NCBI GenBank assembly: GCA_003152015.1
Contig: PLZF01000066.1
Location: forward strand, 1 to 60,883
Source: Acidimicrobiaceae bacterium
Lineage (GTDB): Bacteria > Actinomycetota > Acidimicrobiia > Acidimicrobiales > RAAP-2
Reading direction: 5' to 3'
Length of the DNA: 60,883 nucleotides
Part shown: piece by piece, positions 44,818 to 51,626 of the stretch
Layout of the letters: each line of letters begins with the position of its first letter
Numbering within the stretch: the first letter of the stretch is position 1
Position numbers and translations under genes: made by a program
The notes under the pieces: model-generated
The model's input: the letters and a program-made list of their open reading frames with translations, nothing else
Told to the model about the DNA's origin: nothing
Database searches by the model: none

Positions 44818-46335
44818 GTGACTGTGGACCTCGTACCCCCATCTCCTCGCAACGGCACGCCCTCCGGCGGGATCCTTCCCGACGGCTTTCTCTTTGGGGT
44901 GGCCACTGCGGGTTTTCAGATCGAGGGTGGCTTCAACGGTCCCGGCGAGCCCGCCAACAACTGGCTTCGATGGGAGCAGGTTGGCCGGGTGGAGCCCTCG
45001 GGGAACGCCGTCGGGTTCTGGGAGCGACCCGAAGAGGCGCTCGATCGGACGGCCGATCTCGGGTGCGACAGCTTTCGGCTCGGCCTCGAGTGGGCCCGGG
45101 TGGAGCCAAGGGAGGGAGAGATCGACGAAGGAGCTTTGGCCAAGTATGGCGAGATCATCGACGGGTGCATCGAACGCGGGTTGAAGCCATTGGTGACACT
45201 TCATCACTTCACCCACCCGTCGTGGCTGGGAGAAAACTTCTGGCTCCGGCCAGATTCGCCGGAGCGTTACCTGGCCTGGGTGGAATTGGCACTGTCCCGG
45301 CTGGCGACCAAGGTTCAACTGTGGGTGACGATCAACGAGATCAATGTGCTGGCGTTCGAATCGTGGCTACTCGGAATGTTCCCGCCCGGGCGCCTGATGG
45401 CGTTCGGCGATGCCGCAATCGCCACTGACAATTTGTTGACCGCGCACGTGCTCGCCTACCAAGCCATCCACCGTGCATCTCCTGACGCCGTGGTGACCAC
45501 CAACAATGCCTGCGTCAGCGGCTATGAGTTTGATCGGCTATTGACTGACGTATTGATGGCGCGAAGCTTGGGGGTCAACCGAGACGAGCTCGATGACTGG
45601 ATCGACGAACGGCGGGCTGAGCATTATGCGCGGCTCCCAGTATCGGGCCCGGGGGAACGCGCCCTCCGTCGCCTGGGTGCCATGACGTCGGCCTTTGGCT
45701 CGGCGGCGCGGCGTCGTCCGTTGCGAGGGCGCAACGGAGCTCGCGCTGGGACCCCACGCCGGGCGGTCAATGCGGTCTACGCCAGCCCGTATGAGCGGAC
45801 CCTCGACGTGGTCGGTCTCGACTACTACGACCCCATGGTGGCCCGCCACTTCCGCGCCCCCGGTCACCGAACCGCCGGTGGCCGAGGATGGCAGCCGACT
45901 CGCGCGCTCTGGGACGACATACCCGATCCGGCCGGTCTCACCCGATGGCTCGGCGCTCAACAATCGGTGACCCCTGAGACGCCCCTTTGGGTGGTGGAGA
46001 CAGGACTGTGCAACCGGGTCCGGAACGGGCGTTCCTATCCGCGCCTCGACGGGTGGACTCGCTCCCGTTACCTCAAGGAGAATCTCAACGCGGTGGTGTC
46101 CGCCATCGAAGGAGGCGTGCCGGTGGCCGGATACTGGCACTGGTCGTTGGTCGACAACTATGAGTGGGGTTCCTATCAGCCACGGTTCGGTCTCTACGGG
46201 GTGGACCGACACCGGGGAGCGCGTGGCTTCCGCTGGCTCGACACCGACTCTTTGGGAGACGACGCCGGTGCCACCTATCGGCGAATCATGTCGGGTCTCC
46301 GAGCCGGTGACAGGTCAGTACTCGACGTCGTATGA
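44818..46335 (+). CDS. GH1-family glycoside hydrolase
   Basis: A 505-residue family 1 glycosidase of beta-glucosidase type: FLFGVATAGFQIEG at the start, FRLGLEWARVEP, LVTLHHFTHPSW, the acid/base motif TINEIN (usually TxNEP), and the nucleophile region WVVETGLC (usually TENG), with GYWHWSLVDNYEWGSYQPRFGLY at the end. The GTG start is 150 nt from the divergent thiolase-like gene. No signal peptide is seen, so it is likely cytosolic. The altered NEP motif (NEI) may change specificity; beta-glycosides are the general substrate. Confidence 0.88.
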   Translation: MTVDLVPPSPRNGTPSGGILPDGFLFGVATAGFQIEGGFNGPGEPANNWLRWEQVGRVEPSGNAVGFWERPEEALDRTADLGCDSFRLGLEWARVEPREGEIDEGALAKYGEIIDGCIERGLKPLVTLHHFTHPSWLGENFWLRPDSPERYLAWVELALSRLATKVQLWVTINEINVLAFESWLLGMFPPGRLMAFGDAAIATDNLLTAHVLAYQAIHRASPDAVVTTNNACVSGYEFDRLLTDVLMARSLGVNRDELDDWIDERRAEHYARLPVSGPGERALRRLGAMTSAFGSAARRRPLRGRNGARAGTPRRAVNAVYASPYERTLDVVGLDYYDPMVARHFRAPGHRTAGGRGWQPTRALWDDIPDPAGLTRWLGAQQSVTPETPLWVVETGLCNRVRNGRSYPRLDGWTRSRYLKENLNAVVSAIEGGVPVAGYWHWSLVDNYEWGSYQPRFGLYGVDRHRGARGFRWLDTDSLGDDAGATYRRIMSGLRAGDRSVLDVV

Positions 46336-46583
46336 ACCGAGTAACGCCGACGACCTGCACTAACGTGACACCAGCACCCTCGAACAGGGTTGCCGTCATC
46401 CGTTCCCGATCCAATAGGGGACGGAGGGGGTCGCGAGAAGGATCGGTCCTCGTCGGAGCGGCTCGAATGGGGGAAACGTGGCAGAGCGCGGATCGTGGGG
46501 ACGTCGCCGTTGCTGGCGCCGGCGATGCCATCGGAGTCCCCGTTGACCGGTGAACCCGCGCGTTGCGATACGGCGTTGCTTCG

Positions 46584-49500
46584 ATGGTGACCGTCTCCGA
46601 ACCCCGTATCGGTGCATCGCACCTCCTCCATAGTTGGGAGAACTTCCCGAGCAGGGCGGCGTTTGGTGTCGTTGGTGCTTTGGTGCTGGTGGCCTCGTAT
46701 GTGGGAGTGAACGCCCTTCATCCTTTGGGCCCCGGTGTGGTGCTGAAGGGAATCGTGACCGGTGGCCTCAACTCGATGGTGGCCATGGGCCTGGTGCTGA
46801 TCTATCGGTCAGCGCGCATCATCAACTTCTCCCAACAGGTGATCGGTGGTGTGGCAGCCACTCTGGCGGTGCTTCTGGTGTCCGCCCAGGGCTACCCGTA
46901 CCTGGTGGCGATGGCCATTGGAGTTGCCGTGGCCATCTTCATCGGATGGTTCGCGGAGTTGACGATCATCCAGCGGTTCGCCACCGCGCCTCGATTGGTC
47001 CTGACCGCCGTGACCATCGGCATCTATCAGCTTCTCGGCGCCGCCGAGTTGGGTCTTCCCAAGCTGTTCACAACCAGTTCGAACACCACCGGCATCCATG
47101 CGCCGTTCACGTTGACCTTTCACCTCCGTCCGTTCACGTTCACCGGAGATGACGTGGTGGCGCTGGTGGTGGTTCCGATCGTGTTGATCGCTCTCTATCT
47201 TTTCTTCGCCCGCACCGACTACGGCGTGGCCATCCGAGGTGCGGCGGACTTCCCGGAACGAACGCGTTTGCTGGGGATTCCGGTTCGTCAGCTCAGCCGG
47301 ATCACCTGGATGGTGGCCGCCGGCCTGTCGGGGATCGGGGTGATTTTGGCCGCACCCAAAGGGATTGGGGGCCTCACCCTCGGCAACGTCTCCACTCCGG
47401 CGACACTGCTGCTCCCGTTGGCGGCGGCGGTACTGGCGGGCATGGATTCCTTCCCGATGGCGGTGGCCTGGTCGGTGGTACTCGGGGTGGTCAACCAAGC
47501 GGTGTTCTCGATCTGGCAACGGGCCAGTTACGAGGACGTGGCCCAGTTCATCGTGATCATCATCGGGTTGCTGGTCATTCGTTCCCGGACCACCGGTGTC
47601 GATGAGCAGGGCTCTGGTGAGTTCATCTCGGTTCGAGAGATTGTGGGGCTCCCTGCCCACCTGGCCAAACTTCGTGGAATACAGGTCGCCAAGGGGACCT
47701 GGTACACGGCGCTGTTGCTGGGAGCCGTGTTGATCCCTCTGACGTTTGTGCAGTCCAAGCAGCTACTGGCGGCCAACGTGGCCATCTATGCGGTGATCGG
47801 AATTTCCATCGTGGTGCTGACCGGCTGGGCCGGACAGATCAGCTTGGGGCAGTTCGCCTTCGTCGGGGTCGGGGCCGCCACTTCGGGAGCGCTACTCGTC
47901 CATCAGCACGTTGGATTTCTGGTGGCCACGCTGGCTGCCGCAGCAATCGGTGCCGTGGCGGCGGCGGTGATCGGCCTGCCGGCGCTGCGGGTCCCGGGCC
48001 TCTACCTGGCCGTTGCCACCTTGGCGTTCGCGGTGCCGGTGTCCTCCTATCTGCTGTCATCCTCGACATTTAACTCAGAGGACCCGGCGTTCGTGGCGCG
48101 GCCGTTCCTGATCGGTCACGTTGACCTCGCATCTCAGGCGACGTTCTATGAAGTTTGTTTGGCTTTCTTGGTGGTGACGGCGGTGGTCACCCGGATCCTT
48201 CGCAAGGGGCGTATCGGCCGGAGTGCCATCGCTGTTCGCGAGAACCCGAAGACCGCCTCCGCCTACGGCATCAGCCCATTGAGAAACAAACTTGTGGTGT
48301 TCGTCATCTCGGGTGCCATCGCCGGGGTGGCCGGCAGTCTCTACGAGGTCGGCATGGGGGGGATCAGATCGGGAGGCATATCCGCCGACCTTTCCATCAC
48401 TGTGTTCGTCATGGTGGTGATAGGCGGTCTCGGTTCGATCACCGGTGCTGTATTGGGTGCCGTCTACGTTCAGGCGGCCCAGTACTTTCTGCCCGAGAGC
48501 CTTCAGTTCGTGGCCATGGGAGCCGGTCTGATCATTCTGCTTATGGTGTTTCCGGACGGTCTGGGCGGTCTGGTATTCCGCCTCCGCGACATGGCGCTGA
48601 CAGGGATCGAGGTCCGGCAGGCTCGGCGGATCACGGCGGGGATCCGAGGGCCCGGTTCCGATGGAGCCGATGCGGCTGATGGAGCCGATGTGGCTGATGG
48701 AGCCGATGCGGCTGATGGAGCCGATGCGGCTGATGGAGCCGATGCGGGTGATGGAGCGTTGGCCCAGGATGGCGTCGATCCCACCGTCCACGCCGCCGCT
48801 CTTCGCATCAAGGCAATCGAGAGACGTGAAGACGAACATCCATTGGTCTTCCCTGGTGGTCCCGCGCCCGACGCCGGGCCGCCTGACAATAAACGCGCCA
48901 TCATCGAGCTCAATTCCGTCGATGCCGGCTATTCGCGGCATGCCAAGGTGCTCCAGGACGTGGACATCGGTATTGCCCAGGGTGAGATCGTGGCGCTCCT
49001 CGGCACCAATGGGGCCGGCAAGACGACGGTATTGCGCGCCGTTGCCGGTTTCTTGCCACCGACCAAGGGAACTATCTGCTTCATCGACAGGGATGTTGAG
49101 GACCTGGGCGTACGCGACCGGGTGCAGGCCGGATTGGTGACACTGCTCGGTGGCCGAGGGGCATTTCATTCCCTGACCGTCAAAGAGAATCTGCGGCTGG
49201 CCACATGGATGGCCCGACGCCACCACAAAGATCCCGTCTTTGCCACCGCCGCCACGGAGCGGGTGTTGACCCTTTTCCCGGTGCTGGGGGAGCGGCTCGA
49301 ACAACTGGCAGGTTCGCTCTCGGTCGGTGAACAACAGATGCTGGTTCTGGCCCAGGCTCTCCTGTGTCGTCCCAAGTTGTTGATGATCGACGAGCTCTCA
49401 CTGGGCCTGGCTCCATCAGTGGTGGTGCAGATGCTCGACGTGATCCGGGCACTGGCCGCCAGCGGTGTCACGGTGGTGATCGTCGAACAGTCGGTGAACG

Positions 49501-50495
49501 TGGCTACCGCAATATCGGGCCGCGCCATCTTCATGGAGCGAGGAAGGGTCCGATTCTCAGGCCCCACTCCCGACCTGTCCCAGCAACCTCATCTCTTGCG
49601 CTCGGTGTTCGTCCATGCGGCCCAGCGGGCGGAGAGGCGAACGCCCGGGACCACTTCGGTAGCCTCCGCTGCTGACCAGGTGGCTCCGGCATTTGCCGTG
49701 ACGGATGTGTCCAAGCGCTTCGGCAAACTCGCCGCCCTGCGGAATCTCAGTCTCCAGATTGGTGGCGGCGAGATTCTCGGCATCATCGGAGCGAACGGCG
49801 CGGGCAAGACCACGCTGTTTGACGTGTGTTCGGGTTTCGTTGCCCCTGACCGGGGCACGGTGGCCATGCATGGCCACGACATCACCGGTCTTTCGCCGGC
49901 CCGCCGGGCCGACCGTGGCCTCGGACGGGTATTCCAGAACGGGCGGCTGTTTCCGTCGCTGACGGTGATCGAGGCGTTGACCACGTCGCTCGAGCAGTCA
50001 GCACGGGTTCGAGATCCACGGCCAATGGAAACCGGCCGTACCTCGCCTCCCACATCGCAGAAGGAGTTGCTCTCACGCGTCGAAGAGGTGATCGTCGAAA
50101 TGGGCCTGGAAAGGTTCCGGAACACGTTGATCTTCGAACTGTCATCGGGGACCCGTCGCGTGGTGGAACTGGCATGCGCGGTGGCCCATCGCCCCAAGGT
50201 GCTGCTCTTAGATGAACCGACGGCCGGGATATCCCAGTACGAAGGAGAAGCCCTGGGCGAACTCCTGCTCGGGATCCGCGATCAGACGGGTGCCACCTTT
50301 GTCATCATTGAGCACGACGTTCCCCTGGTGTCGTCAATCGCCGATCGACTGGTCTGCATCCACCTGGGCGAGGTGATCTCAGAAGGCAGTACGACGGAGG
50401 TATTGAACGACTCGGCGGTGGTCACCGCATACATGGGAACAGATGAGGCGGTCGCGCGTCTTACTGGGGGAGTCCACCCGACACCCTCGTCGTAG
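46584..50495 (+). CDS. LIV-type ABC importer with both permeases and both ATPases in one polypeptide
   Basis: About 1303 residues. Residues ~20-320 are a LivH-like permease (GGLNSMVAMGLVLIYRSARIINFSQQ); ~370-650 a LivM-like permease (GWAGQISLGQFAFVGVGAATSG, ending in TGAVLGAVYVQAAQYF). A linker carries an 18-bp coding repeat (~692-725). Residues ~770-1010 form a LivF-like ATPase (GTNGAGKTT, GGRGAFHSLTVKENL, MIDELSLGLAP) and ~1034-1290 a LivG-like ATPase (GANGAGKTT, VFQNGRLFPSLTV, LLDEPTAGIS). No stop or frameshift interrupts it. A substrate-binding protein is not visible in the window. ATG 46584 is chosen over 46563, which has a weak lead; neither has a strong ribosome-binding site. Substrates are likely branched amino acids or short amides/urea. 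Confidence 0.9.
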   Translation: MVTVSEPRIGASHLLHSWENFPSRAAFGVVGALVLVASYVGVNALHPLGPGVVLKGIVTGGLNSMVAMGLVLIYRSARIINFSQQVIGGVAATLAVLLVSAQGYPYLVAMAIGVAVAIFIGWFAELTIIQRFATAPRLVLTAVTIGIYQLLGAAELGLPKLFTTSSNTTGIHAPFTLTFHLRPFTFTGDDVVALVVVPIVLIALYLFFARTDYGVAIRGAADFPERTRLLGIPVRQLSRITWMVAAGLSGIGVILAAPKGIGGLTLGNVSTPATLLLPLAAAVLAGMDSFPMAVAWSVVLGVVNQAVFSIWQRASYEDVAQFIVIIIGLLVIRSRTTGVDEQGSGEFISVREIVGLPAHLAKLRGIQVAKGTWYTALLLGAVLIPLTFVQSKQLLAANVAIYAVIGISIVVLTGWAGQISLGQFAFVGVGAATSGALLVHQHVGFLVATLAAAAIGAVAAAVIGLPALRVPGLYLAVATLAFAVPVSSYLLSSSTFNSEDPAFVARPFLIGHVDLASQATFYEVCLAFLVVTAVVTRILRKGRIGRSAIAVRENPKTASAYGISPLRNKLVVFVISGAIAGVAGSLYEVGMGGIRSGGISADLSITVFVMVVIGGLGSITGAVLGAVYVQAAQYFLPESLQFVAMGAGLIILLMVFPDGLGGLVFRLRDMALTGIEVRQARRITAGIRGPGSDGADAADGADVADGADAADGADAADGADAGDGALAQDGVDPTVHAAALRIKAIERREDEHPLVFPGGPAPDAGPPDNKRAIIELNSVDAGYSRHAKVLQDVDIGIAQGEIVALLGTNGAGKTTVLRAVAGFLPPTKGTICFIDRDVEDLGVRDRVQAGLVTLLGGRGAFHSLTVKENLRLATWMARRHHKDPVFATAATERVLTLFPVLGERLEQLAGSLSVGEQQMLVLAQALLCRPKLLMIDELSLGLAPSVVVQMLDVIRALAASGVTVVIVEQSVNVATAISGRAIFMERGRVRFSGPTPDLSQQPHLLRSVFVHAAQRAERRTPGTTSVASAADQVAPAFAVTDVSKRFGKLAALRNLSLQIGGGEILGIIGANGAGKTTLFDVCSGFVAPDRGTVAMHGHDITGLSPARRADRGLGRVFQNGRLFPSLTVIEALTTSLEQSARVRDPRPMETGRTSPPTSQKELLSRVEEVIVEMGLERFRNTLIFELSSGTRRVVELACAVAHRPKVLLLDEPTAGISQYEGEALGELLLGIRDQTGATFVIIEHDVPLVSSIADRLVCIHLGEVISEGSTTEVLNDSAVVTAYMGTDEAVARLTGGVHPTPSS
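48661..48757. repeat. 18-bp in-frame tandem repeat in the LIV-fusion linker
   Basis: Five nearly identical copies of ATGGAGCCGATGCGGCTG, plus a partial sixth, encode an acidic, Ala-rich linker (repeating GADAAD). They join the permease half to the ATPase half. The period is a multiple of three, so gain or loss keeps the frame. Confidence 0.92.
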
Positions 50496-51081
50496 AGGCA
50501 TGGCGCTTCAGGTCTCGAAACCGAGATTGGCACCAAAAAAAGGGGGACGCAATCTCTCCGCTCCAATGCCGTGAGCGGTGCTTCACGTGGGGCGGTGGCT
50601 ACAGCGATCATTCCCGGTCTTTCATTCTCTACCGGACCCACCGCTGGAATCGCGGTGACACGGCGATTGCACAGAGATCCGGGGGGGGAGGTGGGGCGAG
50701 CGACTGGGAAAAACTCGACTGCGATTTGCCAACCTTCCGGTTGGCGGGACAACCGCCATCGCGCTGTCGATGGTTCTCCCGAGTCGCGTGGCCGTGCCAG
50801 TACGTGCGCTTGGAGTCGGGGCACTCGTGGGTGCGGTGGGTTGGGGAATCGCCGACCCGCTGCCACCACTGCCGGTTGCCTGAGAGGCCGAACCCCCACA
50901 AGCGAGCCCGTTTGTTGGCCACAACCGGTGCCCACGGTCGAGCACAGTTGGCTGTCAGATCGACTCGATGGGGTTCCCGCCGCCGGCCGGATTGCCCATC
51001 CTCGCCACAAGGCGTGCCGCGCAATTTCTATGATGACGTGATTCTGCTTCGCAATTCTCTCGTGATCGCCAGCCCAGCCGA
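50496..51081. other. Gene-free interval with several stable hairpins
   Basis: About 586 bases with no convincing gene. Features seen: an inverted repeat GAGATTG...CAATCTC at 50523-50556 enclosing A7G5, which could end the LIV-fusion transcript; a perfect hairpin GCCAACC-TTCC-GGTTGGC at 50728-50745; and a nearby CCATCG...CGATGG stem. Long open frames on both strands here have irregular, Arg/Gly-rich translations and look like shadows. Confidence 0.5.
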
Positions 51082-51626
51082 GTGAGCGAGCCGCGGACTC
51101 CGATATCGACCGCCGAGGCGCTGGCCGCGCTAGCGGCGATGGACCCGGACCGTCCGGCGGTCACCCATGGAGACCGGACGGTCATCCGGAGCGAACTCGA
51201 AGCCCGGACCAACCAACTGGCTCGCGCCTACATCGAACTCGGCGTCACGCCGGACAGCTCCGTGACGATCGGCCTTCGCAACGGCATTGAGTTCGTCGAG
51301 GCGACGATCGCCGTCTGGAAGGCCCGAGCTACTCCGCAGCCGGTCTCCGCTCGGCTCCCGACCATCGAACGCGGAGCCATTATCGAGCTGGCCGATCCCT
51401 CATTGGTGGTGGAATCGACGAGGTCGGGGCACATGGCCGGCCGTCGATCCCAGCGGGATTCCAACCCGGTTCGTCGATCTCGGATGCCCCTCTTCAACCG
51501 CAGTTCGTCGCGTCCTTGAAGGCCTTGACTACGGGAGGCAGTACCGGACGACCCAAGCTGATCGTGTCAGGACACTGGGCCATCTTGAGCAAGACGGGTG
51601 TTGCCCTGCACCCAGTATGGCGTTGA
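51082..51626 (+). pseudogene. Truncated, frameshifted acyl-CoA ligase
   Basis: The first frame (MSEPRTPISTAEALAALAAMD...) has the usual N-terminal pattern of AMP-forming acyl-CoA synthetases (DRPAVTHGDRTVIRSELEART, GLRNGIEFVEATIAVWKAR). Around 51410 the frame shifts; the continuing frame has FVASLKALTTGGSTGRPKLIVSG, the ATP-binding P-loop motif of the ANL superfamily, then ends at 51626. The catalytic centre and C-terminal domain are missing. No continuation of the family is detectable downstream. Confidence 0.8.

Follow-up and report, generated by a model that had tools for sequence, protein, structure and literature searches.

A probable one-chain LIV-type ABC importer core, with no adjoining binding-protein gene, in an Acidimicrobiaceae bacterium

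ATP-binding cassette (ABC) importers of the LIV/HAAT type, such as LivHMGF and UrtBCDE, depend on binding proteins and combine two permease domains of family PF02653 with an ATPase of the LivF/UrtE type and one of the LivG/UrtD type, which differ in having Gln or His at their switch positions. Partial fusions of importer halves occur elsewhere: FhuB is a double permease, which we take to consist of fused permeases only, without ATPases (its chain length fits a permease-only fusion), and in RbsA and NupO the ATPases alone are fused. Fused ATPases are described as relatively rare in prokaryotic ABC transporters, RbsA and NupO being among the cases given in the accessible part of one source (PMC11466899), and the accessible part of another gives the LIV subunits of Brucella as separate genes (PMC2821768). 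The window analyzed here, a stretch of 60,883 nucleotides from contig PLZF01000066.1 of an Acidimicrobiaceae bacterium assembly, carries a gene, here called HMFG, in which counterparts of LivH, LivM, LivF, and LivG share a single open frame. This one gene is likely to encode a functional importer core of the LIV type in one chain, served in trans by a binding protein whose gene lies elsewhere in the genome.

The HMFG protein shares with LIV/HAAT importers the two PF02653 domains, both ATPase types, and the Gln/His difference at the switch positions. It is filed as a variant rather than a standard LIV system because its permeases and ATPases are not separate polypeptides, the whole being one chain instead of four. 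The F domain precedes the G domain, whereas G comes before F in all six ordinary LIV systems of the same genome, and the locus, unlike the usual one, has no LIV-type binding-protein gene, either in the window or in its relatives L067 and L068. Fused LivHM permeases from the same genome (two on contig C52 and one each on C79 and C86) likewise hold H and M in one frame, but their ATPases lie outside the HM chain, and they are 26 to 31% identical to the window protein where scored over HM. Searches by title and abstract, with subscription journals mostly outside their reach, found no description of a LivHMFG fusion or of a fusion of LivF and LivG to a Major Facilitator (MFS) domain, nor was either found in the accessible parts of PMC10094684 and PMC13068155; such proteins already carry ABC or MFS labels in databases.

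One open frame with four importer domains

The frame is open on the plus strand from a TTG at 46563 or an ATG at 46584 to the stop codon at 50493-50495, and since L067 (Acidimicrobiales bacterium Chersky.4_46) and L068 (Acidimicrobiaceae bacterium palsa_655) share this ATG, a protein of 1303 residues is likely. Pfam matched PF02653 twice and PF00005 twice, the two PF02653 stretches reaching 176.3 bits against a cut-off of 26.8, and the domains lie along the chain in the order LivH-LivM-LivF-LivG. By their best NCBIfam stretches, the first ATPase is nearest to UrtE (and LivF) at residues 775 to 1000 and the second to UrtD (and LivG) at residues 1038 to 1286; a BCA_ABC_TP_C tail on the LivG domain scored 22.3 bits, below its cut-off of 25.5. 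Profiles for H, M, F, and G, built from the first 60 homologous proteins with the query included, gave the same assignment (Table 1). An earlier note on this DNA had proposed, from the letters alone, one uninterrupted chain uniting two permease and two ATPase subunits in H-M-F-G order, and the open frame, its conservation in relatives, and the Pfam, NCBIfam, and profile matches bear this out.

The frame is also open in L067 and L068 (93.1 and 92.7% identity over the alignment), as it is in proteins P0002 (98%) and P0003 (92%). L067 and L068 appear to be the same records as contigs of two genomes of the window's genus (G001 and G002). Ratios of nonsynonymous to synonymous substitution rates (dN/dS), computed with a Nei-Gojobori script, were 0.20 between the window and L067 and 0.26 between the window and L068. 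By domain they were 0.18 to 0.20 for H, 0.14 for M, 0.11 to 0.26 for F, and 0.15 to 0.23 for G, and the three linkers gave 0.45 to 1.41, rough values from short sequences. Purifying selection holds all four domains while the linkers drift.

The earlier note had also regarded the repeat-built acidic linker between M and F as part of the design, a view that did not survive comparison. Because P0002, L067, and L068 lack the repeat, it is an expansion specific to this strain within a linker of variable length and sequence, and not a design element. The near-identical P0002 has 1279 residues, 24 fewer than the window protein at the repeat, and the M-F linkers of L067 and L068, both devoid of the repeat array, measure 71 and 74 residues versus 95 in the window. 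Linker lengths range from 32 to 114 residues across 31 HMFG proteins, and no linker of the 18-bp-repeat type was seen by eye in any of the others.

Spread of the fusion and its sister layout

The H-M-F-G layout was present in 119 of the 120 best-listed matches to the window protein, the exception (P0048) being M-F-G. At E ≤ 0.001, 3867 proteins were scored, and architecture was examined in the best 120, a list that favors full-length similarity. Among 50 transporter loci, chosen from the best matches and not at random, 31 were HMFG, all within the window's phylum, a share that is not to be read as a frequency; five further loci (L081, L087, L088, L156, and L167) did not enter the set, not having all four domains above 120 bits. 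Genome searches covered genomes within the same phylum. A class-wide draw of 198 genomes gave a match at E ≤ 1e-100 in 53, the window's included, and HMFG frames were fetched and confirmed in at least 11 of these besides the window's. One further HMFG locus (L158) comes from another class of the phylum, and the window's own genome (G000; 3.57 Mb in 114 contigs) holds a second HMFG gene on contig C31 in addition to the one studied here on C26. HMFG is thus a real, recurrent architecture: the conserved fusions that the earlier note had suggested looking for in related genomes exist, and the best 120 matches of the homology search did not show the four parts as separate proteins, which the note had named as grounds for abandoning its proposal. 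Other members of the family are partly split, with HM on one chain and MFS-F-G on another. The HMFG proteins of L040, L091, and L095 have long proline-rich C-terminal tails after the G domain; the window protein has none.

In many relatives, a fused LivHM lies beside a second protein that joins a Major Facilitator domain (PF07690) to F and G. Examples of this MFS-F-G protein, about 1000 residues long and next to LivHM, are L070:7203-10214, L073:8730-11720, L078:5272-8208, and L085:7556-10834. Many copies are present in the protein database, the named ones from Actinomycetota, and all 120 best-listed matches to one MFS-F-G query had the same architecture; from sequence, these proteins are predicted to be ABC-MFS hybrids. 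The HM + MFS-F-G loci resemble HMFG in their H, M, F, and G families, in placing F before G, and in the family of their binding proteins; they differ in having two chains and a Major Facilitator domain before F. The window protein (P0001) has no PF07690 match, and no match to the MFS part was found in G000 at E ≤ 1e-10.

In a tree of the 50 systems and six ordinary LIV systems, the ordinary ones separate with full support; five switches between HMFG and other layouts are required, and starred branches make four of these unavoidable. The tree was of a quick kind, built without bootstrap and with six long-branched outgroup rows, and it omits L089 and L090, which duplicate L067 and L068. The approximately unbiased test rejected one common origin of the HMFG fusion (p 1.2e-5 with 31 rows; p 1.1e-4 with L101 counted in), with clade labels taken from architecture and not from tree topology. 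Read most simply, the tree would imply a split ancestor followed by several later HMFG fusions; the order of events is read from the tree alone. A scar of the MFS domain in the M-F linker was also sought and rejected: a profile built from the 32 residues that precede F in 120 MFS-F-G proteins scored at most 4.6 bits on 121 HMFG linkers versus up to 6.1 bits on shuffled linkers.

Probable binding-protein loss and the putative working of the chain

The earlier note's remark that no binding-protein gene lies nearby is confirmed, no binding-protein match having been found beside the HMFG gene or elsewhere in the window. A tblastn search for a gene remnant with the binding proteins of seven relatives returned nothing near the HMFG gene (best E 0.45, elsewhere in the window). 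An orphan state, which the note had raised as a question, is not general to the architecture. A distinct LIV-type binding-protein gene adjoins 26 of the 31 HMFG loci, within about 420 bases or as an overlapping stop-to-stop frame, and lies on the opposite strand in three of them; the loci lacking one are the window, L067, L068, L155, and L096, which starts at a contig end. Such a gene accompanies 13 of 15 HM + MFS-F-G loci, the other two ending near a contig edge. In each of the three genomes of the window's clade (94, 94, and 96% complete), the sister clade's binding protein has just one match, at 34 to 35% identity, adjoining the second HMFG gene in G000 and G002 and, in G001, an HM match that runs to the contig end. 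Because the best matches in six sister genomes, with the query's own left out, are 48 to 64% identical, the dedicated gene was most likely lost in the window's clade (three of three genomes), a derived condition. This clade-specific loss is the most interesting point of the HMFG architecture.

The binding proteins of HMFG loci L086 and L095, the two that were given to Pfam, had no match, although the same C31 gene reached 39.1 bits in another Pfam scan. The name "binding protein" is kept because eight ordinary LIV binding proteins of the genome matched in a profile comparison with a probability of 99.4% (E 5e-21). Several HMFG binding proteins (L040, L091-L095, L098, and others) have a hydrophobic N-terminal stretch by eye.

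Most of a relative's chain, the 1198 residues spanning H through G, is predicted to form a single folded unit (predicted template-modeling score, 0.85), and the model suggests that such a chain would fold by itself into a complete LIV-type importer core in which H and M form one type II-fold pathway and F and G pair beneath it. The modeled permeases resemble those of the type II importers BtuC, HmuU, and FhuB, with FhuB aligning over 492 residues to a model of HM; this comparison is the source of the permease-fold assignment, the search with the four-domain model having matched ATPase-bearing chains mostly by their ATPases. One ATP site, formed by the Walker motifs and switch His of G with the signature of F, would be consensus, and the other, formed by the Walker motifs of F, with Gln at the switch, and the signature LSSGTRR of G, would be non-consensus, a predicted pairing analogous to that of ordinary LivF/LivG pairs. 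The fusion would fix one copy of each part per chain, the linker merely tethering them. The partner in trans would most probably be the C31 binding protein, which belongs to the second HMFG system of the genome and is the only match in G000 to the cognate binding-protein family.

Several observations weigh against this reading. The four-domain model, from which the single-unit fold is predicted, is that of a relative. Of 505 columns that do not vary among nine outgroup sequences, 48 are changed in the window's clade, compared with 13 in its sister L040, which was counted in place of the 99.5% identical P0005 (23 derived columns, partly from a gapped end). In the tree, the stem of the clade measures 0.27 versus 0.086 for the end branch of L040. 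The F signature reads LSVGEQQ, its second Gly changed to Val, only in this clade (3 of 31 HMFG rows). Because these columns are altered and the changed signature falls at the predicted consensus ATP site, the transporter may have taken on another function or become inactive. Decay of the gene, or its repurposing as, for example, a regulator or an exporter after loss of the binding protein, would account for the accelerated substitutions, the altered signature, and the missing partner, yet it is quite unlikely: the frame is open in all three genomes, the overall dN/dS is low (0.20 to 0.26), and Walker A, Walker B, and the switch residues are intact. Misassembly or a missed stop could in principle have created the fusion, since the frame crosses a tandem repeat and was seen in assembled sequence, not in reads, but the repeat-free records L067, L068, and P0002 keep the frame and the layout is common to 31 fetched loci, which makes an artefact extremely improbable.

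Two further explanations concern the partner. After losing its dedicated binding protein, the chain might operate as a low-affinity, one-gene importer that needs no such protein and binds substrate directly; the cognate gene is absent both from the locus and from each of the three assembled genomes, which would agree with this, as would purifying selection on the chain after its burst of change. We nevertheless consider it rather unlikely, given the dependence of LIV importers on binding proteins, the one member of the cognate family left in each of the three genomes, and the other LIV-type binding proteins present (nine PF13458 matches in G000). The same low likelihood applies jointly to the lineage history that belongs to it, in which permeases and ATPases underwent several rounds of fusion and re-fusion about a removable Major Facilitator module. 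A replacement of the lost partner by P0242, a solitary Peripla_BP_6 lipoprotein with a lipobox by eye (G000:C67:11566-12783; L087), is unlikely. Copies of P0242 with 93% identity are present in G001 and G002, whereas seven other genomes, two of which are only 64 and 74% complete, hold no close copy; in the 12 kb fetched around it, permease matches were absent and F or G was not strongly matched. However, 10 further genomes of the family hold relatives at 37 to 42% identity, and none of these genomes is among the 10 with an HMFG-range match (E ≤ 1e-160), so a tie to HMFG is not specific; the three genomes that share P0242 are close kin, their pattern amounting to one event; and a weak ATPase-like match lies nearby in G000 and G002 (35 and up to 76 bits). 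Seven of these 10 further genomes were inspected (L187-L193), and in all seven the flanks fetched around this LIV-type binding-protein family, several of them short, lacked H, M, F, and G genes. P0242, which looked good on ten genomes and weakened on 150, would thus be a weak candidate partner.

If the favored reading of a one-chain core served in trans is true, each ATP site, coupling contact, and permease half could be changed singly within one gene, which is difficult with freely assembling subunits. The repeated fusions, the sister layout with its MFS domain, and the clade without the binding protein would serve as natural experiments on the roles of the binding protein and of fusion.

Features of the locus and neighboring genes

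Table 1. Positions of the HMFG gene, its parts, and the upstream gene in the window
Feature	Position	Strand	Basis and remarks
HMFG gene, predicted single-chain LIV-type ABC importer core	46584..50495	+	1303 residues; open frame, Pfam, ATG kept in L067 and L068
LivH-type permease domain	46725..47600	+	Residues 48-339, profile; PF02653 match 46743-47564
LivM-type permease domain	47742..48608	+	Residues 387-675, profile; PF02653 at residues 396-656
M-F linker	48609..48893	+	Residues 676-770; length and sequence variable
18-bp tandem repeat within M-F linker	48660..48757	+	Strain-specific expansion, absent in P0002, L067, and L068
LivF-type ATPase domain	48894..49592	+	Residues 771-1003, NCBIfam and profile; Walker A, Walker B, Gln at switch position
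ABC signature of F domain	49317..49337	+	LSVGEQQ in place of LSGGEQQ
LivG-type ATPase domain	49686..50450	+	Residues 1035-1289, NCBIfam and profile; PF00005 at residues 1052-1214; His at switch position
Glycoside hydrolase family 1 gene directly upstream of HMFG gene	44818..46335	+	PF00232

The ten neighboring frames that were scanned gave no clear hint of a transported substrate. The glycoside hydrolase gene occupies the side that is labeled "up" for the binding-protein gene in 19 of the 31 HMFG loci; L068 lacks most of it (window positions 44997-46169). The main similarity of the window to both L067 and L068 ends at 50539, just past the HMFG gene. Farther downstream, an AMP-binding enzyme frame at 51082-51519 covers only positions 5 to 103 of a 384-position profile and is apparently a truncated acyl-CoA synthetase gene.
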